From: Pleurotus djamor
Taxonomy: Eukaryota > Basidiomycota > Agaricomycetes > Agaricales > Pleurotaceae
DNA length: 64,000 nt
Assembly: GCA_029747585.1 (NCBI GenBank)
Contig: JAPEVF010000070.1
Location: 1 to 64,000, forward strand
Direction of reading: 5' to 3'
The notes below the pieces were generated by a model that saw only the letters and a list, made by a program, of their open reading frames with translations, searched no databases and was not told where the DNA came from. Position 1 is the first letter of the stretch, and each line of letters begins with the position of its first letter. A program made the position numbers and the translations under genes. Below are positions 24,083-46,636 of this stretch, one piece after another.

Positions 24083-24338
24083 NNTTGTTACACTTCTATC
24101 CAANNCNNNTACAGTACGTCGCCGTTTGTCTTGAATCCATACAGTGCAGCTGAACCAATTATGTAATTGTGTAGCCCTCGAAGAACGTGCAGCGGCTGCC
24201 ATCCCCGGTGCCCCATCTGCTTCTAGCTCGCATGTAGTACACCGAGCCANAAGGATCGCAACAACAGCCTCGGGTACGCGGAGGAGAGTCAAACGGCATA
24301 TCGNCACGANTGANTNCCNNNGNCATACTCANACTCAN
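24083..24338. other. low-quality sequence with clustered N calls
   Basis: Two clusters of ambiguous bases (24083-24112 and 24250-24338, the latter with more than ten N) bracket readable sequence. They fall exactly on the C-terminal coding end of the F-box/WD gene, so its stop codon cannot be fixed. Confidence 0.85.
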
Positions 24339-27060
24339 ATCGCAAACCTCAAATCATCATCCATGTCCTCCATGTCTGACTTCTTGGCCGTAGCTTTCTG
24401 CTTGCCTTGATATCCCTTGGATGGGCTAGTCTTCGCATGAGAGCTTGAGCTGGACTTCGTCATAGCCAGCGGGGTGCACCACGCAGATGGAGGCGAAACA
24501 GAGCTCGCAGAGATAGAACGTTTCGACAAGCTAGGGCTAGTCGGACTCGTACTCTTAGGCATATTCGGGAAATGCTTCTCCGAATGATCGACACCCTTAG
24601 CCTTCGATTTCGCAGGACGGTCGATGGGTCGACCAAAATGCGTTGGTGCAGCTTCTTTGGGTTCCTCTGGTTGTCGAGCAGACAATTGTAACTTCGTATT
24701 GACACTCGACGGAGATGCCCTCGTGAACGATCTGCTGGCTTGTGGAGACGAGTGGAAGCTGGAGCGACGAGATGATGCCCTGGAAGACGCTCCGGAGGAA
24801 ATGGTCGTCTCAGATGGTGGCGGGGATGGCGATAAGGATCGCTGATTGGAGGAGGATGGGACGGGTCCCGATCCATCAAGGTCGAAGTCGGCGTCGAAAA
24901 CGCCTTCTTCAATCCCCCCAGCCACCTGCGTTTGAGCTGTTTCATGTTCCTCCCTACTCAGCATCAAGACGTATTCCACGGCCTCGACTTCACTGAGCCC
25001 GAGACTTTCCAATCCAAGTCTCTGAGAAAGCTCATTTTGCTTGCGTTCAAAAACGCCTTCAGGTAAGGTCGAAGAATCCCGGATGAGATCTCGAGACTCG
25101 CTGATGGCACTATGCAAATCGTGTGTATCTGGCGGATGTATCAAATTCTGTCGATATTATCCTCAAAGGTTCGGAGTACTCACCGTGCACCTTACTGGCG
25201 CGACCAGTCTTTTTCTTAGAACTACCGGCGATATGACGGGATCTAACACCGCCACGGATGTTCCTCTTCGCTGGTCCAGCCCACCACCCAACGATGCGGC
25301 TACCAACGTTGAAAATGACAGCCTGTGAGTCCCCGACCAACGATATCTGGCCTACGATGTCTTCGGAGGATCGCTCAGATCGTCCGCGCGAACGTGGACC
25401 GAATTCTCGGATGAATTCTAAGTTGACGCCATCCCAGACCTTCACTTCCCCAGTGTCTGAGCCGGACACAAGGACCGTCTCATTCCAAGAAATCGCAGTA
25501 ACACTACCACCGTCTGCGTGTGCTTCGATTTTGCGCACGGGGCGGATGGGGGAGGTAATTGCAGGAAGGTAATCAGCCTCGACCACGGAGCGGGAAGACC
25601 AATCGTAGATATTGATGCAACCCAGGGTGTCGCCGACTGCTACGAAGCTACGCGCTGAATCGACATCATTCACATCAACGAAGAGGGGCTCCACACAGGA
25701 TATAAGACCTAGTCCGGGATCATCGCCAAAGGCGGTGATGACGACATCTCGGGTGACTTGATCGATGGAGACACGATGGAAGCATGACTGCGCATGATAG
25801 GCAACCAACAGGCGCACTGTTTGGTTAGATGACGTAGGGTCCACCGTTATTTTAGAAATCGTGGCCGCATTTGAGTTGGGCGCTATCGTCGGGCACGGAA
25901 TGTCAATGCGCTGAGGAGCCTCGAAGGAGACGACAGGTCGAAGAAACTGGGGGAGAACCGCTTTCAACCCGGTCCATACAACGAGACTGCCAGTGGATAG
26001 CGCACAGGCAACAATGCCATGGTCCATCAATGCAGGACTAACCAATGAATACGGGGCATCGACGACCGGGGGTGAAGTCCACAAGAGGGCTAGAGTGTTT
26101 CTGTTGGTTTCCCAAACCTTCAGCAATCCATCGAGGCCGACGCTGACGGCATATTTAACTTCATCTTTCTTCCCAACACCAGTTTCCCAGGCGACCGAAA
26201 AAACGGGAGCATTGTGGCTATCGTTCGTGGAACAAGTGAAGGGGACAACTTGACGGGTTGAATTGGCGTGGTCCATGGACTTTTGCATGTTGACGAAGCC
26301 AACCTTTCCATTTGGGTAACCAAAGAGGGCCATTCCAACACCATTGTGGGCGTGGATAGAAGAAACATGTTCGACTCCGACGAGTTCATCGGCTATGTGA
26401 ACGTTGGTTGCTCGACTGGTGAGGGGGTAGGAACGGGTTATAGTAGCCGGAGAAACCGTAAACGTGACTATATTTGGGATGGGCAGAGGCGTCCAGTGCG
26501 TTGCGGGACTGGCCAAATGGCTCGAAGCGAGTTGCAGACGCGAGCCAGGTGTAAAAATGTTGAGTGGGGTATGCGTCATCGTAGAGTTTCCAGATAATCC
26601 CCATCGCCTGCACTGAAGTATCAATACGGGTTCGAGATACATCAAGAGATTGACTCACCGAAGGAGCTTGTAACGTGCGGTGAACGTTTCTCGCCATGAT
26701 TGCTGGGGCGACTTCCTCAAGAGTAGACGCTTCCAAGAAAGTAGTTGAATACCACTTTCCGGCGAAATTCCGAGAAATTGAGTTGCAAAGGCCCGCTGCC
26801 AAGTAGTATCCAACTTTACGTAGTCAGACAAAAGTTTGCAGACCCGGGCGAGAGATAAGAGTGCAGGTGGTTCAAGATAAGAGGTGATATGCAGGAGGGA
26901 TTCTCCAGGCAGGTCCAGAGGAAACCTGAAACCTGAATGTTGGTCGCTGCTTTGTGATCCATGTTGGTGATCGGAAAATTGGTGAACTGGTAAANTAGAG
27001 GTCTGGAGTCGAATCTTTCTGAGATAACTCGTGTCGTCTATAGAGCATAAACTGTGGGGA
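24330..27060 (-). CDS. Ufo1-like F-box / WD40 protein with UIM-like tail (ends uncertain)
   Basis: Likely SCF substrate receptor. Order of parts: an F-box (FPLDLPGESLLHITSYLEP ... LARVCKLLSDYV, about 26925-26800), a beta-propeller in one long exon (about 26615-25185) with units such as YAVSVGLDGLLKVWETN and LVSGSDTGEVKVWDGV, then after a small intron a charged tail. The tail carries LGLSEVEAVEYVLMLS and, at its very end, MDDDLRFAI, both resembling ubiquitin-interacting motifs. F-box plus WD40 plus UIMs is the architecture of yeast Ufo1. No in-frame ATG precedes the F-box in the visible exon; an N at 26996 and probably an unrecognised first intron obscure the start. The 3' end is lost in N calls. 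It is divergent from ARPC5. Confidence 0.75.
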
Positions 27061-27226
27061 AGGGCGTAGAAGTTACGTCGGGGTGCGCAGACAGCTCGAT
27101 GACGAGGAGGTCTGCGATGGTGGTGGTTCGAGGTTAAGAGAGTTGTCACCAGCAACCCGAAAAAGACGTCAGTCGGCGATTGCCGGTCCTTAAGCTACCA
27201 TCTTATCTTATCTTAGCCACACCGCG

Positions 27227-28274: not shown

Positions 28275-30461
28275 TCACTGGTCACCTCCCGGTCCGGACT
28301 GAGAGACCGCTTCACGATCCTCAGCTGCTTCTCGCCATTTCGCACCCTTCCAAATCACCAGTAAAATCAAGCACTCGGTGATGATCATCACAAAGCACCA
28401 TATCGTATACAACCACCCTGAAACCGTCCTGTGTCAGCTGGCAGAATGATTAGGACAGTTAATGGGGCTCACCGTCACCAACAGTATCCTGAATGGCGGT
28501 GGATTTGCTTCAGCATCACTGAAGAAATAAAGGGGGAAGGTTTGGAAAGCCTCACTTGTAGTGGGACTGCAATTTCCGTGACTATGAACGCACAAGTACC
28601 ACGAAATGCGCTGTTACAGGCCACGGCAATGGAGGAACGCCCATTGTTGGCATCGACAACATAGGCCAACGTACTCGCGTAGACAGAGCTGTTAGAGAAG
28701 TCGGAAGGATACGAGGGGTGAGATCAATAGAGTGCGTCGGTTTGTCAACTCACTAGGCAAGAAATCCGTTGAGGAAGAGCATGACACATATCGCTGAAAT
28801 GTGTGCGTGTCGTTGAGTGACCCAAGCATACCCCAGGATAGATGGCGGGAGTAAAACTAGGCCGAAATATGTGCTCCTAAGTCGCATCTAAGATGGGTGG
28901 GTATCAGGAGCTTGGTACCGAGAATGGGACGCTCTATTTAACTCACTTCAGGAAAACTTTGACCTCCGTTGGCTTCCTTGAGTTTTCTGAGCGTATAGTC
29001 AGAGTAACGACCGCCAATGAGACTTCCAGCAAGGCTGCCTGTCCGTACATTGAACGATGGAAAGACAAAACGACAACCGGAATGCACACCAATACCAGAA
29101 GACAAGAGAACCAAGCCGACTTTCGAGGCATCGTATTGGTATTTGCTACCCAAGGTGCGAGACGTAGTGTACGAGGTCAAGAACCCGAATGCAAAGAAAG
29201 CACCTTGGTCGGCAGTTCAGAAGCTAGTTCAAACTTCGAAGGCGCACGTCAGAATTCACCTGTGACTAGGAAGATGATCAAGTTATTTATCCGAGTAAGG
29301 ACAAGGCAGATCGGCCGAAGGAGGTTGACATCCTTGAAGGTGAGCTTGATATCGAGCAGGTCAGCTGGGCGAGTGGCCTTATGTGTTCCACTTCCACCTC
29401 CATCGGCGAGGTCCTTCTCCAGGTCAGATGCGATGGCGATCTCAGTGTCCGACGACGTGTGACTATGGGCTGAGGCCACGCCACCGCCTGGTCCAAGGTT
29501 TAAATTACTGTCGCTAGGCATTTCACCGTTGGATTCATGGTCGCGCAGTTTAGCTTGTAAGACGGTTTGAAAAGTGAGACTACGTTCTTTCCTCCAAGTA
29601 TCCTTGAAGAAGACCAAGAAAGAGAAAAAGCTCGCGCCGCAGAAGATGGCCGTGAACCAGAAGCAAGCACGCCAGGAGAAACCAGCTGTTAGAGCGCCTC
29701 CGAGGATAGGTCCAAGAGATGGTCCAAGAAGGGGAGCCGTGTAATAGATCCCCATCTTAGTTCCCCGAATTGCAGAGGGGTAGATGTCTGCCAACGTAGC
29801 GGCACCCATTGTTATTGCGGAGGCCGATCTAGTGGAAAAATTTAATTTAACGGTGAGAACGAATGGTAACTGATACTTGAAGCTGCTTACCCAGCACCTT
29901 GTAAAACCCGAAAACCAATCACCAGTCCTATGTTCGACGCCAAGGCCGCACCGATGAACCCGACAGTGGCTAATCCGACTGAAATGAGATACACTAGCTA
30001 GAGATGAATTAGAAGGATATACACAATGCCATTGAGAGACTCGACGGTCAACTTCCTTCCTTTTATTTCACTGACGGCGCTCCATATCAAAGGTACAATG
30101 CCTTGTGAGAGAATAAACAACGATAATGAAAGACTAATTTGAGAGCTGGTTGCAGGGAGTTGCTCCTCCATTTGCTGGATGGCGGCTATACCGTCGGCAG
30201 CACCACGATAAAGGTCAGAGATGCTAGACATACCCGCGAAAGGATTTGAATTTCAGCCTACGATTTTGGATGTGTGTGCCAAAGCCAGCTACAACAGCTG
30301 CCGACGAGATGATCAAGAGTATAACGTTCTAAAGTGATCGGGAAACGGTCGAGCCCTTGTCAGGAATCAAAGAAGTCGCAACTCACCTTCCTTGTATCCG
30401 ACCAGGCACGAGGATCATCTTTGACAGCGACGTGCTCGATATCCATTTGCGGGGATTGCAT
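28275..30461 (-). CDS. MFS transporter, DHA1 type (copy A)
   Basis: Plasma-membrane proton antiporter of the drug:H+ antiporter-1 group. It starts MQSPQMDIEHVAVKDD at 30461. After a GTGAGT intron it reads NVILLIISSAAVVAGF (TM1). Further segments are QQMEEQLPATSSQISLSLS, LFILSQGIVPLIWS and the loop SEIKGRK (motif A). Then follow ATLADIYPSAIRGTKMG and the motif-C-like APLLGPSLGPILGGAL. A long charged central loop separates the two halves. The C-terminal half ends with YTIWCFVMIITEC and a charged tail to TGA 28277-28275. All exons can be aligned with copies B and C. The substrate is unknown. Its promoter region carries a decayed SMARCD fragment, showing it moved with that neighbour. Confidence 0.85.
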
Positions 30462-30869
30462 AGCACAAGTACTTTTGTACTGTAGTGGGAGTGCTGCCTC
30501 TGAGCCGTTTTATAGAAACTGCTTCACATCGAGCAAGAAGCGAAAGCGCGATCCGGTCGTAGGATGGTTCACCTGATTATGGGGTTTCTGCATCCTGCGC
30601 ATGATACGTATCGGTCCACAATGGCTTCAACTTCGGGGCTTCGCAGCGTACCTTCTCAAATGTTGGGGAGCTTCTAGATGACGGAGAAGGTGGTGCGAGG
30701 TTCATCATAGACATCCTTCACGGATACGATACACAGGAAGCCTACGAGGACGTCTAAGAATCCACGTTCAACCGGACTGAAACGCACCGTTGGGGTAATA
30801 GTAGACAATTTTTCCTCAGATCAGCTGCCGAATCGATTACAAACCGATTCTGGCGAGGGTTTCACCATA

Positions 30870-31320
30870 GAAGAAATGAACGTAAGTACTTAGTATCAAT
30901 AGAAAAACAACAACAAAAAGCGAATAGAGGTTCTCGTTCGATATACTCGGGGTGATCGTCTTGTTAGTAGGGCAACAGTCTATAGACCTTCAGAGTCACG
31001 AATGTGCATCATCAGAGAAGACAGTGCAATATAGTTTATTGTAGTGACGTACCTGTTCCGCCAGGGTGGTTCACTTTTTCGAAGGGAGCTCCAGCGCCTA
31101 GATCAGAGACGATTCTACGAATGTGCGTCTGAGATGGGGATTATAAAGACACTGGGCATGCTGAGCCGTGAAAGAATTCGCTATTAAGATGAACGGAAGA
31201 AGCCCTTCGTCAAGTTTAGCCACCTTGTTCGCTCGAAGAAGGATCATCATCTTCAGCATCGAGCCCAAGGCCGAACGCCGGTCAAGTGCCAGCATGTATG
31301 TACGGACCGCACAGCTAGGG
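30870..31320 (-). pseudogene. SMARCD/Swp73 3' fragment
   Basis: Minus-strand sequence resembles the last exons and introns of the intact SMARCD gene at 40.2-41.9 kb. Translated traces include LLRANK..VAKLDEGLLPFI and AQHAQCLYNPHLRRTFVES, against LLQANKESAANLAKLDEEVLPFI and ALHAQSLHNSHLKRTFLES in the intact gene. The matching intron is retained, and similarity continues past the stop into 3' flank (TTTTTGTTGTTGTT followed by CTATTGATACT). In-frame stops and deletions destroy the frame. It has no SWIB domain and no start. Confidence 0.75.
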
Positions 31321-31373
31321 AAGTCGTCCACCCGAGTAACTTACTTGTATCTGTAGCGCGCTCTGGATGAGTA

Positions 31374-31431
31374 GGATAGGTTGGTCTAGTGGTTACGTCG
31401 GTGCAACTCCGGCATGTTCCATTTTTAGAGG
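31374..31431 (+). other. tRNA-like relic (A-box and T-arm-like)
   Basis: GGATAGG, then TGGTCTAGTGG (a perfect A-box pattern), then GTCGG-TGCAACT-CCGGC, which folds as a 5-bp T-arm with a near-canonical loop. The anticodon arm is missing and the acceptor stem pairs poorly. It looks like a truncated tRNA-derived sequence rather than a working tRNA. Confidence 0.25.
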
Positions 31432-31624
31432 CGTTACGCCCGCGACTAGCCCACTCACGCGTTCGTACAATGTATGAATCTAAGTAGCATGAATTGTACA
31501 GGATCCTCAATAAGGGAAGCAATCGGGTTTGCGAAGGATGTGCACGGAGAGCGACTGGTTGGCAGTGAAAAGGTAAGGAGACTTCGTAGGTTATATTTAT
31601 ATAACTAAGGAATATTATGCTAGA

Positions 31625-33764
31625 TCACTTCCTAGACTGAGAGACAGCTTCACGCTCCTCAGCTGCTTCTCTCCATTTCGCACCCTTCCAAAGCACTAGT
31701 AAAATCAAGCACTCGGTGAAAATCATCACGAAGCACCATATCGTATACATTCCCCCTGAAAACGTTCTGTATCAACTCAGAAAAAAGGCAGGAGAGTCAA
31801 TGAAGCCCACCGTCACCGACAGCGTCCTGATCCAGGCGGCGCATTCGGTCAGCGTCACCGAAGAGATACCGAAGGAGACTTGGAAGATCTCACCTGTAGT
31901 GGGACTGCGATTTCCGTGACTATGAATGCATAGGTGCCACGAAATGCGCTGTTACAAGCCACGGCGGTGGAGGAACGGCCATTGTTGGAATCGACGAGAT
32001 ATGTCACTGTACTGGCATAGATACAACTTATTGAAATGTTAGATGGATGTGAACAGTGGGAGAGATGGGGTGTGTCAGCAATTCGACTGACATTGAGAGA
32101 AATCCATTCAAGAAGAGCATGACACACATCGCCGAGATGTGTACACGTCGCTGGGCAACCCAGCCGTACCCCAAGACAGCAAGCGGGAGTAAGAGCAGAC
32201 CTAAGAATGTACTCCTCAGGCGCGTCTAAAATGAGTGGGTATGAGGGATATGGAGTTGAGAGTCAAATGCGTCTCTCTAACGCACTTCTGGAGAGCTATG
32301 GCCTCCATTAGCCTCTCTGAACTTTCTAAAAGTGTAGTCCGAGTAACGGCCGCCAATGAGACTTCCAGCAAGGCTGCCTAGAGAGAGCTGAAGTGAATCG
32401 ATATGGTGGATGTCATCCAACATGCGTACCGATTCCAAACGACAGGAGCACCAAGCCTATCTTGAAGGCGTCGTAATGATATTGGGAATCCAACGTTCGG
32501 GACGAGGTATATAAGAGGAGAAACCCAAGCGCAAAGATGGAGCCTAGTCAGTAGATGAGTCTAAGCCACTACCATCACGGAGGACCCACCAGAGGCTAAG
32601 AGAATGATCAAGTTGTTTATCCTACGAAGGACCAAGAAAAGCGGCCGAATGGGGTTGATATCCTTGAAAGTGAGCTTGATATCGTGCACCTGACTGATTG
32701 CAACAGCAGCACCGACTTTCTCACAACTGTGAGTGTGAGCTTTTTCTTCGCTGGGTATGACAGCGATTTCGGTTGCAGACGACGAATGACCACTCGTTGC
32801 CGCCCCACCGCCGCCGGAGCCAAGTTGGTTATCGTCGCTGTGCGATTTGCTCGAATCATAGCGGTTCATTTCGCGTATTTGAGCTCGCAAGACATTTTGA
32901 TAGGTCAGGCTACGCTCTTTTCTCCAGGTATCATTGAAGAAGACCAAGAAAGATAACCAATTTGCACAGCAGAAGATGGCCAGGAACCAGAAGCAAGCCC
33001 GCCAGGAGAAGCCGACCGTTAGAGCGCCGCCAAGGATAGGACCGAGAGATGGACCGAGAAGCGGGGCCGTCCAATATACTCCCATTTTGGTGCCTCGTAT
33101 AGCAGGGGGATATAGGTCGGCCAATGTCGCTGCACCGAGTGCTACTACAGCAGACGTTCTGAAAACACCTGGTCAGGACTTCGTGGACTAAAGGATGATA
33201 GACTACTTACCCAGCACCTTGCAGAACGCGGAAACCAATCACCAGTCCAATGTTGGGCGCCAATGCAGTCGCGATGCACCCGACGATGGCCAGACCGATT
33301 GAAACGAGGTATACAAGCTATCGGTGAATCAGGAATGGGGCGTCTTGTTGACAAGATACACAACGCTACCTTCCTTCCCATGATTTCACTCATCGCACTC
33401 CATACCAAAGGTACAAGTCCTTGTGAAAGGATAAAAATCGACAACGAAAGACTGATTTGAGAGCTAGTCGCAGGGAGCCGTTCCTCCATTTGCTGAATCG
33501 CAGCTAACACCACAGTAACGGTCAGCCACATTTCACGCATAAAGGGATATAGGCTCACGAGTTTGGATATTGGCGCTGAGGCCAGCAATCATCGCGGCGG
33601 ATGAGATGATGAGGAGCACGACATTCTGATGGGAAAGCAATCCAGGAAGTGAATCTAGTGTAAGAAGTCAAGAGTATCACAAGACTCGCCTTCCTTGTAG
33701 TGGACCAGGCACGAGGATCATCTTCGACAGGGACGCGTTCAATGTCAACTCGCGGGGCTTGCAT
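31625..33764 (-). CDS. MFS transporter, DHA1 type (copy B)
   Basis: Close paralog of copies A and C, in tandem with A. It starts MQAPRVDIERVPVEDDPRAW at 33764. The first intron (33689-33626) has a GC donor (AAG-GCGAGT). Diagnostic segments are QQMEERLPATSSQISLSLS, ADLYPPAIRGTKMGVYW, APLLGPSLGPILGGALTVGF and NNLIILLASGG. The central loop is charged and ends before DIKLTFKDINPIRPLF. Twelve or so membrane spans are expected. It ends at TGA 31627-31625 after AEEREAVSQSRK. An N (33808) lies in its TATA-like promoter box. It is a putative multidrug or small-molecule exporter; no substrate can be read from the sequence. Confidence 0.85.
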
Positions 33765-34177
33765 GGTTGTCGAACTTGGGGCTCTAGCATCTACGGCCAC
33801 GAATCCANTTTTTATGCAAGCATCCTCATGTTGCGCGCAAGGATGAAAGCGTGAACTGGCCGTCGAATGGTGCAGTTAGCTTCGACGCTACATGCGCAAG
33901 AGAGGGCAAGGGTCTAACAACGCCCACATCACATCACAGCTAGACTGGGACACACACCAATAGAGAAGATCGCCCAAAGCGTGAGTGAGTTTAAAAATCA
34001 TGTTATGGAATAGATAGCAGGAGATATGCATGCAGAAAGTAATATGTGTCAATAGCAACGAAGAGATGCGACAATATATGAGTACGTACGACCAAACAAG
34101 TCTAAAAACAGGTATGNAAAGCGATGCGAATGACTGATCAATGAAGTGAAAGATAGCTACCAAAGATGGATGAACGT

Positions 34178-37100
34178 TTATGGGGGAGCGGTGTTTACGA
34201 TAGGTCTCTGCCCCATGTCAGGAGCACCAGAGGGATCTAAATTCGAGGGAGTCGTGTTTGCGTTTGCGTTTGCATTCTCTTTCTCCTTCTGTTCCTTCTG
34301 TCTATTCAATTCTTTCGGCAACATGATGGCACGGTCAACGGCAAGAGGCAAGCCACGATGTCTGCCGCGAACCCTAGGTTGCATGAAAGGTTTCATGAAA
34401 GGTTTCATTAGACCTTCGGGAAGAAACGCCAGGAAATGAAACACGCACATAATGACAATGATGATAAGCTTTGACAATGGTTTCATGGCACCACAGAATG
34501 AAAAGTTGTCCTAGGTTGCGGAGGCGTAAGCTATGACGGAAAAGTATGAGGCCATGCGGACTGACATATGGAACGCCGAGGGTCAAGCCGATACCACCAA
34601 AGGCTGACACGAGTTCGAAGAGAACCCGAAAGAGGTCAAACCATTTCTTGTCTTCGTCCATAATCTGACCTCTCTCGATAATGGCAATGAAGAACACCGC
34701 CCAAACTAACCACCAAATATCTGTTCACGTGAATTAGCTCGTATAGGCGGACGCTTGGTGTCTGAGTTATGAAAGGAAGACGAACCGTTGGACACTTGTC
34801 TGCGAAGATGCCAATCGAGGTACTTCCCAACCCGCTCGCGAGGAGGAAGAGCTTCCAAGTTTGTAGGTTCTTCATCTTCATCATCCACAGGGGCTTCAAA
34901 GACACCGAGAGACCTTTCTTCATACACATTGGTCGAACGGATACTCATTGCAACCTAGAACTGGTCTCAGGAAGGATTAGGTACGATGGCAAAGCACATA
35001 CTGGGTAAACCTGAGGTCACATTCAGCAACATCACAAATTAGACGACTTTGAGTGGACTTACAGCGATGTACATCATCACGGCGTAAAGGAATCTACGGA
35101 ATGGGTAAGCTTCATTAGCTCCTGAAGCTTGAAGGATGAAGCAACATACTGGATCGCAGGGGCAAAGTTTGCGAGGGGCACGATAGAAAATCCGGAGGCG
35201 CGGGCAGCGAGACCTTGAAACAACCCAGCGATGACACGGGGTCCTCCGCCAAGTGCCTCAAAGGCAGGAAGTCCAATGTCTGCGAGCAGCGCAAGTCACC
35301 AACCTTAGTATCGGATGAACTATAGGAAACTTACTCAAAACTTCGAACGCTGCCCACTCAACAGCGCTACTCACCGAGCCGGAAGAATTAGGGAAGGCAT
35401 GGGGACAGCAATGAATCGCACATGCCTGAAGAGGACAAGACATATAAGGAGAAACCATGTTTGATGACTTGGGAATCTGATCGCAACTTGGTCAGGGCGT
35501 CTCTACCCTCTGTCACGTAACTCACAGGTATATGAAGCATCTGCCACAGCGGTGTGCCAACGTAAGTGCTGTATCGTTTGTGAAGGTTAGACGAACCTGC
35601 GAGGATGGTCTATCAAGAATTCCAGAGCCTTATGTGTATCTGACTTGACGTTGGTAATTTTGTAGCCAATCCAGCTTGCGGAGAGGAACTAGATGAGTAT
35701 ATGTAATAAGGTTTGATGGAATGATGATACTGCTCACATGACAAAGCGGAGACTGGTCGCGTATTCCACCGGTTGAGAAAGAGTATGACAGCGAAGCAAA
35801 AAGATTGACGCACAAGATCGGCTAAAGACAGAACTTTGAAGTTAATCCAGGATGGACGGCGATATGATCGATATGTGGAATTTTAGACGCACGAGAGCAT
35901 GGTTTCCAGCCAGGATGACGAACATCATTGCAACTACACGAAAACATTGGCTTTAGTGGTGAGATGGGACGGTGAGCAAAGGACGCACCAATCATCAAAT
36001 ACGCTGACTGAAAGGGAACCATCCCCCTAAAAAAAACAACGTCAACAACGTGCGTGTGGATTTCATGGACGTAGATATGCAATACATATCGACCAGCGAC
36101 AATCCACCTCCGGTGTACGCGCCCATCACTTGAAACAAGGCAAACCTAACGCAAGAAGTGAGGGCATGAGGATCGAACCAAAGGAAAAGTGTTTCAACAA
36201 CGGACCATGGTTTCTGGACGATCCTCGGTTGAGCTTCAAAGACGCCGTCGTATGTATGGGTGACAGACAGCCACGGTGCGAATAAGATGTAGGCGAACAC
36301 TTGAGTGAGAACGAAATACTAAACAACCCAACCATCGATGGCATCAGTGCCGACGAACACGCATAAGGGATGAAGGGAAACTGGACTCACGGAAGGGACC
36401 AAATAGCTTAACAACCTCAACGCTCGGTACTCTGCACCACCCACTTCCTCAATCTGCTCATCCGTCAATGTCTCTGCGTGGATATCGGAGTTCCTCCCGA
36501 CAATCAAAGGAAACGAAAGCCACGAAACAACTTTCGCATTCATATCTGATATATCTGATATGAACCGATCCACGACATTGCCGTCCTCGCTCATATTGGA
36601 ACGACTATCACGAAATGGATGCTCAGCATCGCCCCTTACATCACCGGGCGAATTTGGCCCTAAAGACGTAGGACTGAGGACGGTCTCTCCCATGTGATTG
36701 GCACCTGTGATGGTTTGGGTTGAGGATATGGTGAGCTTGCGTTCAAGCGTTGCATAAGTCCTTGGAGAGATATATTGAAGAGCTCTCTGTGCGACGTTGA
36801 TTGGACCAGGAAATCCGCCGTAATGCTGATACTTGGCTTTATCACCATGTTGTGGTTCACCTTGCGCATCGAGGGGCGCCATAGCTCTTTGATGGTGAGT
36901 TAACATTGTCACCCCTCGACGAGGACGGTATCGAGTTCCAACTGTGCGGTACTGAGTTGGTGTCAGTTGCGGAGTTTGTGGTTACTCACCTCGTTGCGGG
37001 CGTGGACGAGCACTTGAAGTAAACGATACTGTTCGCGGAAAAGGATCTTCGACAGGTGAAGCCAAAGCAACACTGGCTGCTTTAGGCGAGCTCGTGAAGG

Positions 37101-38002
37101 TCTTCGCGTCCTCCCTATTGAGGATACCGCCGTCCTGTGCATCCTCGCTCTCCCTGCGACGACCATTATCCCCGAATCCGAATAACTCCAAGTCAGAGGT
37201 GTGGGATATGTTATCGAGCCTTGATAACGTCGGGCGTGGTGTTGAACGTGGCGTTGGTCGGGTAATCATAACTCCCGGACTGGGTGGAGCTCCCACGTCG
37301 CCAATGCCAGGTAGATTGGTAGGGGACATGGCAGCCGGCGAGTCTGTTAACCCTTTTTCCGTGTCAATCTGGCCAGGACCGGTATTTTGACCCAATTGCA
37401 AAGCGTGTATAGGTGACGAGATGGAGTTCAATAGCAGTGTTCGCGTGCGTTGCATAGCCAGAAGGGCACCGCGCCGTTTGGGACTATACTTGATAACATA
37501 CTCGCATCGTGTGCGGAAATAGTATCTTTTCTCTTGGTTGTGAATAGGATTGGCTACGAAGAAAGCCACGAGACTACTCACTTGCGGACTAGAACCATCA
37601 CCCACGACACCATTGTGATATCTCCCTTTCATAGCCATTCTCAACGCCTGACCACCACGAACTCTAAAGGAAACTCACAATCATCATCAAAAAGTATAGA
37701 ATGACCTGCTGCATCACTGTCGTCGTTGACAGATTGACCGTCGACAAGCCCGTCACTGTCATTGACGAATAACAAAGAAACAACGAGTCCAGATAGCTGA
37801 CGCGAAACCGCCCATTGCATGCGTAGAAAATGCCGGAAAAGATGAGGGGAACGAAGGTGAATGCTAGCAAATGAATCCGGAAGAAGGTGCTCTCTTTCTT
37901 GATGGTATGCCACAGTCGTTGTCGTCGAGTCGCATTGGTCGGGTCCACTTTCTCGGATACGTGCGATTCCTGTGGCTCGAGGCCGAGCGCGTTGTTTTCC
38001 AT
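34178..38002 (-). CDS. TRK1: Trk-family high-affinity K+ transporter
   Basis: Plasma-membrane potassium uptake system. The start MENNALGLEPQESHVSEK is chosen because an in-frame stop precedes it. The first M-P-M unit reads FYACNGRFRVSYLDSLFLCYSSMTVTGLSTV, with TVTGLSTV as a selectivity-filter-like loop, followed by the cation-transporter segment MVSWVMVLVRK. A long cytosolic loop (about 37500-36450, rich in Ser, Thr, Pro and Arg) is characteristic of fungal Trk1. The second half has FALFQVMGAYTGGGLSLVD and MGMVPFQSAYLMI, later LFELVSAFGGIGLTLG (last filter region) and VRGRHRGLPLAVDRAIMLP, the classical Trk C-terminal motif. At least ten introns are needed. Stop TAA 34180-34178. An N at 34117 lies beyond the stop. 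Confidence 0.9.
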
Positions 38003-38179
38003 GTCCTGGCCGCTGGGGTAGGACTCTTGGGTTCAAGAGTCCCTCGGAGTTGTAAGAAAGCTGGAATGAAAGAGAACACAGGTGTGCATCATTGTTGGGT
38101 TATAACTTTAGACTATTTTCAGACCCTCCTCGTGTATTCAGTTCTGGCTACACCACTCAGGGTCATTTGTAGGTAATCC

Positions 38180-38905
38180 CCGAGCTCACCCTGAAACACC
38201 AGCCTGAGCCATCCTCAAACTCGATGCAACCGCTGGTATTACTTATGTGGTGCATTTCACTGGTCAGAATCCTCTGTTCTCGCTGAAAAAATGCCCTGGG
38301 AGTCGCCGTCGGAATAAGGTGAGAACCCACCAAGCCGTTCTTCTCTACGCGATATTTGCATCATCGAAGGCGCAGCCTTTTTACCCATTTTTGTAATTCA
38401 TCAAATTCCAGAAGGGCCTGCGAACAGATGGTCAAGTTGGTTCGATGAGAGGATGATATTGCGAGATAGGCTTGAACCAGCCTCTACGTCAACATTGACA
38501 TGGTGAGTCGGTGACGCGTTAACTCTAACCTAGTCGAACCCACCCCGCCGCTCGAAGCTTGTGCAATACTTACTCTAGTACCTACGCTCTAGCTTACCCA
38601 ACGAAAGGGCCAAAATGAGTGCGCAAGAGAATTCTATTTCCGCCAGTGATATAGATCAACTCGGAACGGTCCTCCATGGAGTAAAGGTGAACGTGAACAA
38701 CCTGATACCATGGTCACCCTTTCTCACCGATGCCATGACAGAAATTCCAGGAAAATTGAGATGCTACTGGCGCCAATACGTGCCTGTGAACCGGGAAGTA
38801 AAGCGCCAACTAGAATGACATCACTGACTGTTGGCCCTTTCGTAGTTCACTCCAGCTATGATGCTGCGTATTGCTTGCCGCCCTCAAGTCTCCTCTCCAA
38901 CCCCA
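38180..38905. other. intergenic between divergent genes
   Basis: Shared 5' region of TRK (minus) and the CsbD-like gene (plus). A 67-residue frame at 38615-38818 has no family resemblance and I do not call it a gene. Confidence 0.45.
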
Positions 38906-38907
38906 AC

Positions 38908-38915
38908 TGACGTCA
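38908..38915. promoter_or_regulatory. perfect CRE palindrome TGACGTCA
   Basis: An 8-bp TGACGTCA, the binding site of Atf1/CREB-type bZIP factors, lies about 90 bp before the ATG of the CsbD-like gene and 15 bp upstream of its TATA box. In fungi such sites serve stress MAP-kinase signalling through Atf1 homologs; that link is inferred here. Confidence 0.6.
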
Positions 38916-38929
38916 CCTCCAGAAACACA

Positions 38930-38936
38930 TATATAG
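38930..38936 (+). promoter_or_regulatory. TATA box of CsbD-like gene 2
   Basis: TATATAG within CATATATAGG, about 70 bp upstream of ATG 39006. Confidence 0.5.
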
Positions 38937-39005
38937 GATATTGCCATTGAAATCGGATCCCCATCCAACCCGAAACAACTCACCTCGATTCAAAATCCAA
39001 CCATT

Positions 39006-39663
39006 ATGTCCGGAACCAGATTGAACAACACCGACTTCTCCTCGATGAACCCTAACAATAACAATTTCTCCAATACTCAAGGCGCTGGCTTCACCACCGA
39101 CAAACCCCCTACCCGCCACGTCCACCATAACTCTGCCGAACCTCTTCCAGGCGCAAGGGGCGCTCGGGACCCTATCGACTACAGCGTCGACAATGTCGAA
39201 AGCATGTCATCTGCTCACGGTCATCATCAGGGCGCCGACTGGCATCAGCGCGATAGCTTTCGTCAGCCAGGGACCTTCAACCCCTCTGCCGACGACTCTC
39301 TTAGTAGCCAAGGTAATACGGCTTTCACTAGGGATCGTCCCATGAATGTGCAACCTGCCCCCGAAGGTCGGTAATCATCATTTGGCTTGGAAACCTAGAT
39401 CTGATCCCTTAACACGCAGGCGGTGTGTCCGTCGATGGACAAGCTGGTTTGCCTGAAGGCCATGCTGGCTTCGGCGACAAACTCGTCGGCAAGACCCAGA
39501 AGGTAAGCTCAGATATATCGATTCCGTTACTTATGTTCTAATTCGGCTCGCGAAGGTTATAGGGAAGGCATCGAACAACCCCGCATTGCATGAGAAAGGA
39601 GAACTTCGTGAGGCAGGAGGAAAAGCTGCCGCTGAGGGTCTCGCTAGGGCACCCCACGATTAA
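39006..39663 (+). CDS. CsbD-like small stress-type protein 2
   Basis: Three exons; the second begins GGVSVDGQAGLPEGHAG after an intron opening GTCGGT, and the third begins VIGKASNN. The N-terminal part (about 120 residues) is disordered and rich in Asn, Ser, His and Pro. The C-terminal block FGDKLVGKTQKVIGKASNN followed by PALHEKGELREAGGK is the CsbD-like signature shared with the 21972 gene. Fungal relatives are small, soluble and often stress-induced; mechanism unknown. The promoter holds a perfect CRE and a TATA box, consistent with inducible expression. Stop TAA 39661-39663. Confidence 0.7.
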
Positions 39664-40208
39664 ATTCTGGAGTTGACATCGATGAACTTGTAATATCGAC
39701 ACGAAATCGCTCTTGTACTATAGCAGATATAGGTTAATTTTAAACGCCCCCAGCAAGTCAAGGCATACACTCCAACGATTTGTAACTTTCATATTCATCG
39801 AATCATTCGTTTGCGAGAGGAATCGGCAGCCATGCAGTTGGGCGGGCCGTTGAGTACCAAAGTATCGGTTCATAGCGCGCTAGGATGGTAGAAACCCAGA
39901 TATTATCGAATGTGAAGGTAGGGAATATTGACAAAGTCGGAACTTGGGTACTACACCCTGATGCTTAGAGAATATTTGGACATCCTTCTGTTCTTTTCTA
40001 TAGCTGTGAGCCCTCCGCTCCGCAGAGTGCGTCATCCCCCTCGGCTCAGTTCGAGAAAGGGAGAACTTGGGGTTCCGGTCTACGTTCGACGAAGGAAGCC
40101 AGACGAACAGGATGCGTGAACTCCCCCTAAAGGAATCAGGAGGGATGTCACGCTCAATCTGGCGCGTTCGCGTGACACTGGACGCGTGACATTTGACTCC
40201 CACCAATC

Positions 40209-41870
40209 ATGTCTGCTCCTCCTCCTCCATCAACCCAGGACGCCCCCAAATCAATCAAGTTCGTCGACTAGCTGTATCTGCACTGAATAGCTCTGACGGG
40301 ACCTTCCATTCACATAGAAAGCGCAAGCTCACTGACAAATCAATCCCAAATGTCATCTTGCAAAGCCCTGCGTTCGCGGAGGATTCAAGAATGTACCAGG
40401 ACTTACTCGAGATGGAGAGAAAGCTTGACTGGACAATAATGAGGAAGAAAGCTGAGATACAGGACGCCTTGGCTAGAAACCCGACGGTCAGTAATGATGT
40501 GGTGTGTAGTGTTCTTGTTCTAAATGACAGTAGACGACGCGCACGCTGCGATTGTTCGTTTCTCACTCTACCTCGGGTCAAGTTTGGCAGAATGGTGGAG
40601 ATACCTCGACGACACCCAACTTTGACACTGGTGAAGGTGTTCCAGCGTGGATGTTGAGGATAGACGGCCGCTTGTTAGAGGTATGTCTTTGCCATCAACT
40701 TGACGGTTTGATATATGCATTGACGTGATTCTAGCCACCCAATGTGCGGAGCAGAGATAAGATACCCGTTCGCAAATTCTCGACTCTCATCAAGCGGATG
40801 GTCGTTGAAATGGACAGAGACCCCGCAATGTACCAAGACTCGAACATCGTTGAAGTACGGCCTTCGTTTCTGTACCCCCTACCTGGAACTCATCTTAGAA
40901 CTACCTCTGCTACCCTAGTGGCCTCGAGCTCCAGGTCATCAAAATCCCATCCTGGATGGCTTCACCATACGACGCACGGGCGATGTGCCAACCAAAATAC
41001 GAATCATCTTGTTCCTCGAACATTTCCCAGAACAGTTCAAAGTCACGCCAGAGTTAGGGAGCCTGCTAGGGATCAAGGAAGAGAGCAGAGTCGGCGTGAT
41101 ACAGGCGTTATGGAACTACATCAAGGTGCAGGGCTTACAGGATAAAACGGATCGACGATTGGTTAGGGCGGATGATGCTCTTCGCCCAGTGCGTGTCTTT
41201 CTCGGCGGCGCCGTGCCGTACTTATGCTCGTTTTACCAGATTTTCGGAGCGGACGCGTTACCATTCCAGAAGCTCCCTGAACTAGTGAATCGCTACCTGA
41301 CCGCTCCGGACCCAGTGATAGTACACTACATTCTGAACCCAACGATACCGCCACCTGAGCGGCCTTCGGCTTGGGATGTCGAAGTGAAGATGGAGGACCA
41401 CCTGATGAAAGGAAAAATGACCGTACTCCTCCAGGCGAACAAGGAGAGTGCTGCGAATCTCGCTAAACTTGATGAAGAGGTTCTTCCGTTCATCTCAACC
41501 ACATCGTTAGTGTGAGGCTAACCTATTTCCTTCCCCTAGATCGCTCTACATGCCCAGTCTCTACACAACTCTCACCTCAAGCGCACGTTCTTGGAATCCT
41601 TCTCTAATGACCCGGCGCAGTTTATCCAAACATGGCTGGAGTCCCAGTCGCGGGATCTGGAAAGTATCTTGGGCGCTGGGGCCACGGAATATGGCACTGT
41701 TCGTGCGGAGGAGTTGAAGAGGAGCGAGTTTTTCAGACTTCCCTGGGTGGAAGAGGTACGCCTCTACAACAAACTTTGTCGCGTCGTCTTCTCTGATGGT
41801 GATGTTCATTGTGACTTCATAGGCTGTCGCGCTCCAGGAAGGTCTTCGAATCTCGAAGTTACCTGGGTGA
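40209..41870 (+). CDS. SMARCD/Swp73-type SWI/SNF subunit with SWIB domain
   Basis: Accessory subunit of SWI/SNF or RSC chromatin remodellers (relatives: yeast Swp73 and Rsc6, fission yeast Ssr3), nuclear. Exon 1 encodes MSAPPPPSTQDAPKSIK; a 58-nt intron is preferred over a 32-nt alternative. Next come IPNVILQSPAFAEDSRMYQD and the coiled ERKLDWTIMRKKAEIQDAL, then TLRLFVSHSTSGQVWQNGG. The SWIB/MDM2 domain reads FPEQFKVTPELGSLLGIKEE, then VIQALWNYIKVQGLQD and later IFGADALPFQKLPELVNRYL. The C-terminus is HAQSLHNSHLKRTFLESF then AVALQEGLRISKLPG, with TGA 41868-41870. About eight exons. A broken copy of its 3' part lies at 30.9-31.3 kb. MFS copy C follows on the same strand. Confidence 0.9.
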
Positions 41871-42372
41871 ACGTGTCGCTACCTGTAACACAAGGGCATC
41901 TATTTTCTTTTTGTTGTTGTTGTTATTCTATTGATACTTTTCTTTTCTGTGATGTCTAATCGCGCTGCTCAGTGCTCAAATCAACACAGTGCTTATGGTC
42001 GACCCCAACTCAACGGTAGGTCCCAGTCCGGTTGTGATGCAAAGTGCGAGCGGGAGAAATCTTTTCTTGTGGTGTTGGTTTCTGGTTTACTTGCTGGTTT
42101 TCATTCTTCGTGCATTCTTAAGGTGTTGCGCAGGCGNTTTTGCGTATTCTAACTATTCATCGAGTGGTGTTGGACCCCGTGATCCACGTTCATCCTCTCC
42201 GCCGTCTACGTACTACTCCCTAGAAGTTCTATCTATCGTCTCAAGCCATTCAGCGCCTTGAGAAGCTTATGATAAATGCGAACGAAGCGCGGACCGAAGA
42301 AACCCGACGGCAACATGAGCCATCCGGCGGCCGACTCGCGCTCTCGCTTCTTACACAACATGAGGATGGGTG

Positions 42373-42380
42373 TATAAAAA
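42373..42380 (+). promoter_or_regulatory. TATA box of MFS copy C
   Basis: TATAAAAA about 55 bp upstream of ATG 42430, within a block conserved in front of all three MFS copies (CATCC..CG.CCG..TCGCGCT(T/C)TCGCTTCTT, then the TATA). Confidence 0.6.
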
Positions 42381-42429
42381 TGGACTCTTTTCCAGATGCG
42401 ACATACAGCGTTCTCACCAAGGTTGAACG

Positions 42430-44607
42430 ATGCAGACCCCGCGAGTTGACATTGAACGCGTTCCTGTGGAAGATGATCCTCGCACCTGGTCGGCTACAAG
42501 GAAGGCGAGTCTTGTGACGCAGCCTGTTTGACTCCTCGGACATGATTTACTTCCTGAATTGTTTTCTTATTAGAATGTCGTCCTTTTCATCATTTCATCC
42601 GCGGCAATGATCGCTGGCCTCGGCGCCAACATTCAAAATCGTAAGCCTGATTCTTTCTTTTGTGTCTTGCATCCTCCTGACCTATGGGACTGTCATAGCC
42701 GCAATCCAGCAGATGGAAGAACAACTTCCTGCGACCAGTTCTCAAATCAGTCTTTCGTTATCGCTGTTTATTCTTTCACAAGGCGTTGTACCTTTGATAT
42801 GGAGTGCCATAAGTGAAATCAAAGGAAGGAAGGTGACCATCGAGTCTGCGTAAGGGTATTCAAAACCTTCATTCTAATCCATCTATAGCTCGTATATCTC
42901 GTTTCAGTCGGTTTGGCTACCGTTGGGTGCATTGTAACTGCCTTGGCTTCGAACATCGGGCTGGTGATTGGGTTCCGCGTTCTGCAAGGTGCTGGGTGAG
43001 CAGCTTACCTACCCAGTGGCGTCCTTCGCGCCATCCTAACTTGTAATTCCTTCCTTATAGATCGTCTTCTGTCATATCAATTGGCGCAGCTACATTGGCG
43101 GACCTCTACCCCCCTGCGATTCGGGGAACCAAGATGGGGATCTACTATACGGCTCCGCTTCTTGGTCCATCCCTGGGACCTATCCTTGGTGGTGCTTTAA
43201 CCGTCGGCTTCTCCTGGCGTGCTTGTTTCTGGTTCATGACTATCTTCTGCGGCATAAGCTGGTTGTCTTTCTTGATCTTCTTCAAGGATACTTGGAGGAA
43301 AGAACGCAGTCTGACCTATCAAAATATCTTGCGAGCTAAACTACGGGAATTGGACCACGACGACTCAAGCAAAACGCCCAGCGACAGCAATCCAAAAATC
43401 GTTTCTGGCGGTGGTAAAACGGCAATAAGCAGTCACACTTCGTCGGTAACTGAGATTGCCGTCGTGTCTAAAAATGGACTAGAAAAGGACCTCGCCTTTG
43501 GTGGTGAGAAAACTGGGAACACCGATGTGTCTGCTGAGCTACCCGATATCAAGCTTACTTTCAAGGACATCAACCCCGTCCGGCCTATCTCCCTTGTGCT
43601 CCGCAGGATAAACAACTTGATCATCCTCCTCGCCTCTGGTGGGTGTGCACTTGGATCACACCTAAATTTGTGCGTACTCAGACCTTTTGATGCTCACCAG
43701 GGTCTTTCTTCGCGTTTTCGTTCTTGATCACGTACACCACGTCCCGGACCTTGGGTAACAAATACCACTACGATGCCTTCAAGATAGGCTTGGTCCTCTT
43801 AGCTTTTGGCATTGGTGTGCACCTCGCTCTTCGTTTGCTCTATACGTCATTCCTCCAATCTATGAATAGGTAGCCTTGCTGGAAGTCTCATAGGTGGTCG
43901 TTACTCGGACTATACCTTCAGAAAACTCAAAGAAGCTAATGGAGGACAAAGTTCTCCAGAAGTGAGTTTGTTGTATTCCATCTTGGTACCGAACTGCTCA
44001 TCATGACTCATCTTAGATGCGTCTGAGGAGCACGTTCTCCGGCCTGCTCCTACTTCCACCATCTATCGTTGGGTATGCCTGGGTCACTCAGCAACATGTT
44101 CACATCTCTGCGATGTGTGTCATGCTCTTCCTCAACGGTTTTCTTTCTATGTGCGTAGATATATTGACATCATCCCTGTGGCTCATCTTGCTATTCCTAT
44201 CCATATCAGCTACGTCTATGCTAGCACGTTAGCCTATATCGTTGATGCCAACAATGGCCGTTCATCCACCGCGATGGCTTGTAACAGTGCATTTCGCGGG
44301 TTTTCTGCGTTCGTAGTTACGGAGATCGCGGTACCACTACAAGTGAGATACTCGTTCCTTTTTGCCTCCCCATTTGCAACTCCTAACCGAATATATCATC
44401 CTTAGGACGCTGTTGGTGATGGTAAGCCGTCGCAACCTCTCATCTCATATTCTGTACTGATAGAGGCCTCCCTCAGGGTGGATGTATACGATATGGTGCT
44501 TCGTGATGATAATTACTGAATGCTTGATTTTACTGGTAATTTGGAAGGGCGCGAAATGGAGGGAAGCGGCTGAAGATCGTGAAGTTCGTTCCCAGACCAG
44601 GAGGTAA
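42430..44607 (+). CDS. MFS transporter, DHA1 type (copy C)
   Basis: Third paralog, opposite in strand to A and B. Exon 1 (42430-42504) encodes 25 residues starting MQTPRVDIERVPVED and ends at a GC donor; intron 42505-42573. It continues NVVLFIISSAAMIAGLG, QQMEEQLPATSSQISLSLS, SEIKGRK, VGLATVGCIVTALASNIGLV, LADLYPPAIRGTKMGIYY and LLGPSLGPILGGALTVGF. A charged loop follows, then DIKLTFKDINPVRPISLVLR and NNLIILLASG. The second half has SLAGSLIGGRYSDYTFRKL, YAWVTQQHVHISAMCVMLFL and DANNGRSSTAMACNSAFRG. It ends WREAAEDREVRSQTRR with TAA 44605-44607. It sits directly downstream of the intact SMARCD gene, so it is the best candidate for the source copy. Confidence 0.88.
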
Positions 44608-44930: not shown

Positions 44931-46475
44931 CTAATCATCATCTAGCTCGTCTTCTTCTCCTTCAGGCTCCCCCATCAGATCATCGGTGACCATTTTTACG
45001 GCCATGTCCATGGCTGCACGGCTCATTTTGGGTAAGGCACCTTGCCTGAGCAGTGGATGTTTCGCAGGGTCGAGTTCCTCTTCCGACTCCATGGCGACAT
45101 CTTCTTCGTCTTCCCCCTCGGCGTCGCTCGGCGCACCAGATGGGTGGCCTTCAGCTTCTTCGTCATCAGATCCGGAATCAGATCCTGAGCCACCAGAGTC
45201 ATCCGATTCCTCGTCGTTGAAGGACGAATCGGAATCCTCATCGTCATCGAATTGGGCATTGGCAAGGGTGATATTTCCAGACGGGAGGGGTTTCTGTTGA
45301 GACTTGGTAGCGGGTGGTGGAGGTGCTTGTCCATTGACTGAACCGAAGAGGTGCCGATGATTCCTGATCCAATCGTTCATTGGATCCTGCTCTTTCGCAT
45401 CGATGACGCCAAACTGGGTTTCCTCTCCTTCATTATCGGCAGGTTCATCTCCTTCCTGATCGGTTTTTTGTTGTGGTCGCCGGGTTAGAAGCACTGAGCA
45501 AGTCTTTCCCGTACCTCCGACGATGCGCAGGCCCTCAGTTCTATTGATGAGGTCTTCGACGGACCAAAACTCGCAGGGTTTACTCTCTCCCCAGAGAATG
45601 CCTTCTTTCATGAACCAGAGAGACCCAGCTTTAGCACCACGGTAGGCCTCGATACCAGGTACGCCGTTACCACTGGGGCCGGGGCCACCAACTGAGCTAC
45701 GGAACACCTGCACTGAAGGCTCGAGAATAGGAAAGGGAAGATGGGAAAGGAATTGACGGAGAATGGGCAGAGTTTCGGTTCCTTTGGCATGCGTTTCCTT
45801 GGATTCTTCAGGGGTAAACGTGGTTGCAGAGACAGGTGCAGTGGATTTAGCGTCGATACCAAATATTACTTGTTGGTTCGAAGGATCATTTGAGGCTGCC
45901 TTTGCGGTTGAAGGTGAGTCTGCGGAGAGTAGCACAACAGTCCAGTGAGGCTTTGTCTTCCCTCTTGTTGGTAGCAAGAACGCGCGAGTCAGATGTTTCA
46001 GCGGGATCTCGGCCTCCACAGTTCCTGTGGTAGGATTGACGAGCGATATAGCAGCAGTAAATATCTTAAGGTCCACCTTCTTGCGGACTGGAGATGTCGT
46101 GGAGACAGAGTGTAGGATGAACAAGGGTTTACCACGATCAAGTACAGGAGACGACGCCGACGCGTCTACACCATCGGCCTGGAGCTTAGGACGCTTGCCC
46201 GCGCCCGGACTGTCTCGATCATTGGATGCTCCGTCGTCGCGAACTCGTTTGTTACTCGAGGGCGATACGATACCTTCTAAAATAATACGCGCTCTGGCCT
46301 GTCTTTCAGACCAATCAAGTGGTGCTGGAGAAGCCGCACATTCTGCACCCAACGTGAACCGTAAGAGGTTCTCCACAGTGGCTTTGGTCTGCTCCGAGGC
46401 GCAAAGATTACGAACACTGGTCGACAATTCTTGGGGTAAAGTAGAAAGGATAGATTCCAGTATTGATTGGGCCAT
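44931..46475 (-). CDS. Rtt106-like histone chaperone
   Basis: Single exon of 514 residues. The family (Rtt106 / Spt16-middle-domain type tandem PH fold) binds histone H3-H4 in replication-coupled nucleosome assembly and silencing. Residues about 100-350 form the core, with LFILHSVSTTSPVRKKVDLK, TGTVEAEIPLKHLTRAFLLP, then GIEAYRGAKAGSLWFMKEG and GESKPCEFWSVEDLINRTEG. A nuclear-type basic patch (KRVRDD, GKRPKL) lies near residues 77-97. The C-terminal quarter is strongly acidic (DDDEDSDSSFNDEESDDSGG and more), as usual in histone chaperones, and ends EEDELDDD. It is divergent from the RluA gene, 161 bp between ATGs. It is larger than yeast Rtt106 mainly through the tails. Confidence 0.85.
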   Translation of the reverse strand: MAQSILESILSTLPQELSTSVRNLCASEQTKATVENLLRFTLGAECAASPAPLDWSERQARARIILEGIVSPSSNKRVRDDGASNDRDSPGAGKRPKLQADGVDASASSPVLDRGKPLFILHSVSTTSPVRKKVDLKIFTAAISLVNPTTGTVEAEIPLKHLTRAFLLPTRGKTKPHWTVVLLSADSPSTAKAASNDPSNQQVIFGIDAKSTAPVSATTFTPEESKETHAKGTETLPILRQFLSHLPFPILEPSVQVFRSSVGGPGPSGNGVPGIEAYRGAKAGSLWFMKEGILWGESKPCEFWSVEDLINRTEGLRIVGGTGKTCSVLLTRRPQQKTDQEGDEPADNEGEETQFGVIDAKEQDPMNDWIRNHRHLFGSVNGQAPPPPATKSQQKPLPSGNITLANAQFDDDEDSDSSFNDEESDDSGGSGSDSGSDDEEAEGHPSGAPSDAEGEDEEDVAMESEEELDPAKHPLLRQGALPKMSRAAMDMAVKMVTDDLMGEPEGEEDELDDD

Positions 46476-46636
46476 TTCGTCTACAAGAATCCAAGAAATC
46501 AGACGTCGTCGTCAGTGGCGCGACGTCGTGGTGGTGGTGAAGGTGAGAAAGGTGAACGCCGTGGCCAGTCGCGTCCACGCTTAGGCGTCCCACGGGCGCG
46601 TCACGACTTTTGCTTCCGCCTTCCGAGCCAAATTGC

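Follow-up and report, generated by a model that had tools for sequence, protein, structure and literature searches.

A block of about 3 kb, carrying the 3′ end of a SMARCD gene and the adjoining major facilitator superfamily (MFS) transporter gene, is duplicated at the DNA level in Pleurotus djamor. We analysed the first 64 kb of contig C1085 (hereafter the window; 64,000 nucleotides) from the assembly of one isolate (55.9 Mb, 1413 contigs). An intact SMARCD gene followed by MFS copy C lies on the plus strand, and a decayed SMARCD fragment followed by MFS copy A lies on the minus strand, next to a further transporter, copy B. The features of the duplication are:

40209–41870, plus strand: intact SMARCD gene (SWI/SNF 60 kDa subunit), parent of the fragments; 8 exons, 429-aa model
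42430–44607, plus strand: MFS copy C, DHA1 (drug:H+ antiporter-1)-like, adjoining SMARCD; 11 exons and 10 introns, 526 aa
31625–33764, minus strand: MFS copy B; 10 introns placed as in C, open frame, upstream homology over about 115 bp
30890–31295, minus strand: decayed SMARCD 3′ fragment of unit A, collinear with about 41347–41938 (nhmmer, BLASTN and alignment)
30462–30890, minus strand: 3′ flank of this fragment and promoter of A, collinear with 41900–42429
28275–30461, minus strand: MFS copy A; the spliced model has an open frame, but the intron-3 donor is TT instead of GT

When the window was compared with itself by BLASTN, copy A matched copy C on the opposite strand (28310–30461 against 44584–42430; 72.8%), as did copy B (31623–33833 against 44609–42356; 71.3%), and A and B matched each other on the same strand (70.3%). 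Three further minus-strand matches lie outside the MFS gene and are collinear: 30892–30928 with 41938–41899 (85%), 30994–31066 with 41816–41741 (77%) and 31184–31220 with 41498–41462 (89%). An nhmmer profile of SMARCD, its 3′ flank and the promoter of C was built from two sequences, the window gene and its counterpart on contig C189, where a second version of this region lies. It matched the minus strand of the window at 31295–31104 (E = 1.1e-16) and at 31067–30507 (E = 1.5e-18), the latter match spanning the SMARCD end and its flank and continuing into the promoter. Ten control sequences (five from the window and five from the C189 stretch, shuffled within 100-base bins) gave 0 matches at E ≤ 1.

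The similarity extends beyond coding exons to an intron, the 3′ flank and the promoter, as expected of a segmental duplication of DNA. In agreement, intron positions are common to the copies and part of a SMARCD intron is retained in the fragment. A retrocopy origin is ruled out, since the copies retain introns. The transporters might instead be independent family members and the SMARCD match a product of chance or low complexity, and the most visible match does include a T/G-rich run. This is refuted by similarity running from exons to promoter at E values of 4e-68 (C189) and 1e-16 to 1e-18 (window), with all shuffled controls empty, and its probability is practically negligible.

The initial annotation had proposed a block of about 3 kb copied at the DNA level, with the A side on the strand opposite to SMARCD and C and with B as a further tandem copy; BLASTN and profile collinearity bear out all three points. 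A lack of collinear similarity outside the MFS exons, named there as the result that would speak against a duplication, did not occur. The coordinates given for SMARCD (40209–41870), C (42430–44607) and A (30461–28275) were correct within tens of bases. The fragment placed at 31320 onward does lie on the minus strand, but is recognisable only from about 31295. The passenger gene has indeed decayed, but it does not appear to have been whole at the start, as the homology on C189 begins just after the SWIB domain.

The transporter copies and the SMARCD gene

MFS_1 (PF07690) spans residues 33–469 of copy C (E = 3.3e-51), as expected of a DHA1 MFS transporter. By sequence, the best solved relative is Quinidine resistance protein 2 (E = 1.4e-27), and many of the listed Agaricomycete homologues are named ‘vacuolar DHA amino acid exporter’. 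The homologue lists comprised the best 120 of 580, 235 and 379 matches, and scoring was limited to the candidates that shared most words with the query. NCBIfam (prokaryote models) gave only below-cut-off matches among the best 25 listed. Each MFS gene product is most likely a 12-helix proton-driven exporter, as predicted from sequence. Among fungal DHA1 transporters, the copies resemble the Qdr or ‘vacuolar DHA amino acid exporter’ type in their PF07690 domain and in Qdr2 as best solved match; they differ in that here a predicted transporter, known from sequence, has been amplified beside SMARCD.

The model of C was built by eye and projected through a 7-way alignment to A and B and to the four C189 copies (C2, B2, D2 and A2). 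Each of the seven modelled sequences has 10 introns at the same places (46–76 bp). Of the 70 introns, 66 have GT-AG borders, three have GC-AG and one has TT-AG. The three GC-AG introns are intron 1 of C (window 42505 region), C2 and B, which is GT-AG in B2, D2, A and A2; the shared border could reflect conversion between these two genes, C and B. The single TT-AG case is intron 3 of window copy A, with its TT donor at 30051–30050; the C189 version has GT. Reading through this intron leads to a stop, and the deposited model of copy A (P0005) omits VSEIKGRK instead, which we take to be the loop after the second helix. P0005 and P0010, deposited P. djamor proteins with ONZ45 tags, match copies A and B, with splicing that differs in places. 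D2 lacks the first ATG; once it is read from an internal ATG and one ambiguous base is dropped from A2, none of the seven models contains an inner stop. The ratio of nonsynonymous to synonymous substitution rates (dN/dS) is 0.12–0.24 across all 21 pairs. The synonymous rate (dS) is 0.72–1.08 across the 18 pairs that exclude A/A2, B/B2 and C/C2.

Similarity among the copies is mosaic. Identity between D and A is 0.69–0.71 in the 5′ part and 0.79–0.82 in the middle, and identity between B and C is 0.76 and 0.66, respectively, in a comparison of three segments picked after data inspection. A scan for conversion tracts covered 11 triplets (33 tract tests, uncorrected for multiple testing). The D=A tracts had a shuffle fraction of 0 of 2000; the B=C run at 42438–42515 had a fraction of 0.03, which would fail correction. 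The matches for C in the 55.9 Mb assembly include only two copies of it (100% and 96%). A remoter MFS relative lies at C189 84789–87707, with about 64–84% identity in short pieces.

The SMARCD protein carries a SWIB domain (PF02201, residues 200–272, E = 4.5e-22). The genome DNA matches include two full SMARCD genes (100% and 93%), plus one extra SMARCD fragment, on C189. The deposited model P0002 places the exon 6/7 border differently, between LDEE and IALHAQ, and its border is likelier than that of our model. P0002 (ONZ45_g5755, 909 aa; C189 50063–54471) also fuses SMARCD with the MFS gene, skipping the SMARCD stop, and the P. pulmonarius model P0001 appears by eye to be two fused MFS genes. 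Both fusions are probably annotation errors.

A second version of the array on contig C189

C189 47352–74265, when reversed, is collinear with window 24300–47263. In this version C2 and SMARCD share one strand, and B2, D2 and A2 follow on the opposite strand together with two SMARCD fragments. The profile placed one fragment before A2 (67170–67806; E = 4.4e-68) and the other before D2 (63176–63350 and 64428–64678; E = 3.8e-12 and 3.3e-9). The junction of an MFS 3′ flank with a SMARCD fragment occurs twice, and the 3′ flanks of B2 and D2 are similar up to the fragments (69% over 94 columns, E = 1.5e-6). Because fragments precede A2 and D2, the repeated unit would be SMARCD 3′ end, spacer and MFS. 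The A2 fragment, the best preserved, contains frame-breaking gaps and starts at the equivalent of window 41307–41315, right after the SWIB domain; for this reason the passenger was probably incomplete from the outset, that is, truncated at birth.

The window retains part of unit D:

31310–31600, minus strand: remains of unit D, with the fragment-start region and a short repeat-like insert (31349–31431), joining the unit A fragment at about 31310–31250

Window 31573–31348 aligns with C189 63196–63453, and window 31251 onward aligns with C189 67267 onward. As the alignment follows the D fragment and then continues in the unit A fragment, we infer that roughly 2.8 kb, comprising the remainder of unit D with MFS D, was lost from the window version. 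The repeat-like insert inside the D fragment is common to both versions, so the upstream region of D would have been present in the window version before the deletion. The breakpoint is blurred, with both possible continuations scoring equally over the last 190 bases (76 each, local). Exchange at equal points of two fragments is not supported as the route of deletion, since the joined points are non-homologous (equivalents of about 41660 and about 41347–41400). On C189 the D2 fragment is split by about 1.1 kb. Two copies of a 12-bp repeat (63442–63453 and 64330–64341) enclose the inner 876 bp, which begin with a T run and match 26 other contigs; a reverse-strand open reading frame (ORF) within them matches zf-RVT weakly (E = 7e-5), at 23.8 bits where the cut-off is 27.5. 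C189 63442–64341 is probably a truncated insertion resembling a long interspersed nuclear element (LINE). It is absent from the window, where the sequence from 31455 to about 31310 aligns with the C189 flanks once these are joined.

A second version in the assembly, collinear across the block, is what alleles of one locus would give. The C1085 and C189 blocks are probably alleles on two haplotypes. Against this, homology ends at window 24300 and 47263 and the contig flanks do not match, as would be seen if the C189 block were a paralogue, a segmental duplicate of 23–27 kb at a different site of the same nucleus. Yet clusters of ambiguous bases mark three of the four block edges (window 24083–24338, C189 47321–47358 and C189 74386–76475), and the fourth, at window 47263, has no such cluster and falls within the pseudouridine-synthase reading frame of the window. 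At 99% identity, window 23770–24103 matches C1231 and window 24110–24303 matches an inner piece of C916 before both contigs depart, and C907 tracks C189 at 99% up to 47342 and then departs, patterns like those at chimeric joins. Identity also rises to 97–99% toward the edges. These observations speak against the paralogous duplication, which we judge quite unlikely. The edges with ambiguous bases are likely chimeric assembly joins, and allelism is thus inferred rather than proven. B and B2 are sisters in both gene halves; given a dS of 0.57, against 0.07 for C and 0.15 for A, they could still be different paralogues.

Origin and orientation of the array

Three neighbouring genes frame the array and its parent:

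34180–38100 (approximate), minus strand: TRK-type potassium transporter gene, between the array and SMARCD
44931–46511, minus strand: RTT106-like histone chaperone gene, right neighbour of C (PF08512, E = 2.9e-15)
24335–27194, minus strand: F-box/WD40-like gene, left of A (PF12937, E = 9e-10)

The TRK assignment is based on PF02386 in ORF 34724–34374 (E = 5e-8), one of four ORFs, the other three having no Pfam match. In the F-box/WD40-like gene PF00400 falls just below cut-off (E = 6.6e-6), and its frame runs into the ambiguous bases at 24083–24338.

The protein tree comprised our seven copies and 13 of the 120 listed homologues; six of 14 fetched proteins were left out (P0001, P0002, P0005, P0010 and P0024 as fused, truncated or duplicate, and P0085 as more distant). 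In this tree the P. djamor transporters, four in all, group in a single clade (100/99) in which C lies outside (B,(D,A)) (95/91). A separate MFS set belongs to P. pulmonarius: three members are listed with contigs of identical size (82,619), and the pair that by eye is fused in model P0001 is listed with the same contig size as SMARCD of that species (2,845,320). As the P. djamor copies form one clade, either amplification followed the split from P. pulmonarius or gene conversion within the species mimics that pattern.

Examples of linkage between SMARCD and the RTT106-like gene among listed species were read from locus tags. Tags are close, and the contigs of equal size, in Hohenbuehelia grisea (HGRIS_007029/007036), Termitomyces (H2248_002741/002743), Psilocybe cf. 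subviscida (D9619_009133/009125) and Tricholomella (D9615_007956/007948). Marasmius oreades has tags that are more distant from each other (E1B28_013334/013382), and the contigs are of unequal size in Amanita thiersii and Leucogyrophana mollusca. The best Hohenbuehelia MFS match lies on a contig of different size from that of its SMARCD, so the MFS gene may have joined SMARCD in the Pleurotus line.

We propose that a segment from mid-SMARCD through the adjoining DHA1-like MFS gene was duplicated in the P. djamor lineage, as far as the copy tree shows, and that the duplicate was placed on the opposite strand about 8 kb away. It would then have been amplified head-to-tail into units of SMARCD fragment and MFS (B, D and A). 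The SMARCD pieces would have been dead on arrival and drifted, and the transporters would have been retained by purifying selection while trading tracts by gene conversion. The window haplotype would later have lost MFS D through an illegitimate deletion. We regard this scenario as a whole, with partial duplication, an opposite-strand array, two haplotypes and loss of D, as probable. Several points weigh against it. The introns are known from gene models, gene conversion and mosaicism weaken the whole-copy tree, the unit D fragment starts about 180–190 bp later than that of unit A, so that the junctions are not identical, and the profile detected no SMARCD fragment upstream of B, where simple array models need a loss.

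The initial annotation had pictured a block that was copied and inverted. C189 instead has an array in the order B, fragment-D, fragment-A, and copying and inversion in a single step is not supported as stated, because one inversion of the segment from TRK to SMARCD and C gives a head-to-tail order of SMARCD-C-B-D-A. A tandem array of SMARCD-C, fragment-B, fragment-D and fragment-A, followed by inversion of TRK, a small gene, SMARCD and C, differs from our scenario only in the origin of the opposite orientation. Inverting the segment between the B promoter and the C 3′ flank restores the head-to-tail order, tandem duplication would be expected to join the 3′ flank of an MFS gene to a fragment of SMARCD, and both would-be breakpoints appear to be short intergenic stretches. 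But the profile found no SMARCD fragment beside the C 3′ end or before B, so this model needs the first junction to have been lost at the breakpoint. The linkage of SMARCD and RTT106-like genes in several other Agaricales fits both models of orientation. We give tandem growth followed by inversion a substantial chance, somewhat short of an even one.

Other searches of the window gave no match in the plasmid collection, no tRNA genes in 24–48 kb and no Rfam families at 31250–31520. Elsewhere, an inverted repeat lies at 57567–57933 (84-nt arms, 94% complementary, 199 nt apart), and a short direct repeat at 12514–12551 and 12689–12726 (84% alike) has similar stretches on C453 and C548. Positions 1593–2686 and 17424–18454 form a diverged direct duplicate (66–71% identity) with more relatives on other contigs.

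Divergence between the two versions

In 300-bp bins, identity between the versions is 97–100% at 24.6–28.5 kb, 84–96% at 28.5–30.9 kb, 74–82% at 30.9–34.2 kb, 81–97% at 34.2–42 kb and 95–99% beyond 42 kb. Jukes–Cantor distances, which are rough because they come from pairwise alignments of gappy DNA, follow the same course. Non-coding DNA at the array gave 0.31 (SMARCD fragment and A flank) and 0.30 (TRK–B spacer); outside the array the values were 0.20 for the SMARCD promoter, 0.026 for the SMARCD–C spacer and 0.032 for the C 3′ flank, and the F-box, RTT106-like and SMARCD genes gave 0.014, 0.034 and 0.071. The distance between the SMARCD fragment and SMARCD is 0.43, kept low by constraint on the parent gene. 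If the clock was even, the array versions would have stayed apart through much of the period that followed the duplication, and, if alleles, they would be long-lived haplotypes or products of introgression.

A divergence peak that decays on both sides is expected of a balanced polymorphism. The array might be the centre of an ancient polymorphism of this kind outside the mating-type loci, with haplotypes that differ in the number and versions of their exporter genes, although we consider this unlikely. Perhaps two haplotypes are kept because a dikaryon gains from both predicted exporter sets, or because the locus acts in strain recognition. The B mating-type locus was rejected, with no STE3 match on C1085 or C189 among at least 41 listed, as was the HD locus, with no Homeobox_KN match there among at least 3 listed; these searches scored their best candidates only. 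Other observations temper the case for a long separation. At a different place on C189, a further contig matches at just 81% across 3.1 kb (allele and paralogue not being distinguished) and one window stretch matches C334 at 87%, beside 96%, so strongly diverged pairs are not unique to the array. Most of window 1–24 kb and 47–54 kb is without a near-identical second copy, a pattern of collapsed assemblies, in which it tends to be only the diverged stretches that stay separate. The same picture would arise from introgression or hybridity in the P. djamor complex.

Ancient balanced haplotypes have reportedly been found at a nutrient locus, the yeast galactose pathway. The array also resembles the Trichaptum mating-type (MAT) loci, as presented in the part of PMC8970355 drawn on here, in its local divergence peak falling off on both sides, a likeness limited to the shape of the peak and, for P. 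djamor, to one isolate; it differs in that the listed STE3 and homeobox matches include none on C1085 or C189. It is also like a tandem expansion with partial duplication of a passenger (a truncated pseudogene) in its collinear exons, introns and flanks, its decaying truncated neighbour and its purifying selection. Here, in contrast, the array is oriented opposite to its parent, and the deeply diverged versions, two in one assembly, carry different numbers of copies. We found no paper uniting inverted and tandem duplication with gene conversion in fungal transporters, and none on tandem or segmental duplication of an MFS transporter in Pleurotus.

The array is mostly ordinary gene-family evolution with preserved intermediates, its noteworthy part being the divergence peak. 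Partial copying of a neighbouring gene, tandem growth, gene conversion and loss usually have to be inferred by comparing distant species, and here several stages coexist in one assembly: SMARCD fragments variously decayed, and a transporter deletion, a LINE-like insertion and a splice-site loss, each in one version only. If the versions are not alleles, they warn that divergent haplotypes in dikaryon assemblies can end up in chimeric contigs. If they are alleles, the divergence peak of about 10 kb would provide a testable example, away from the mating-type loci, of haplotypes maintained over long times.

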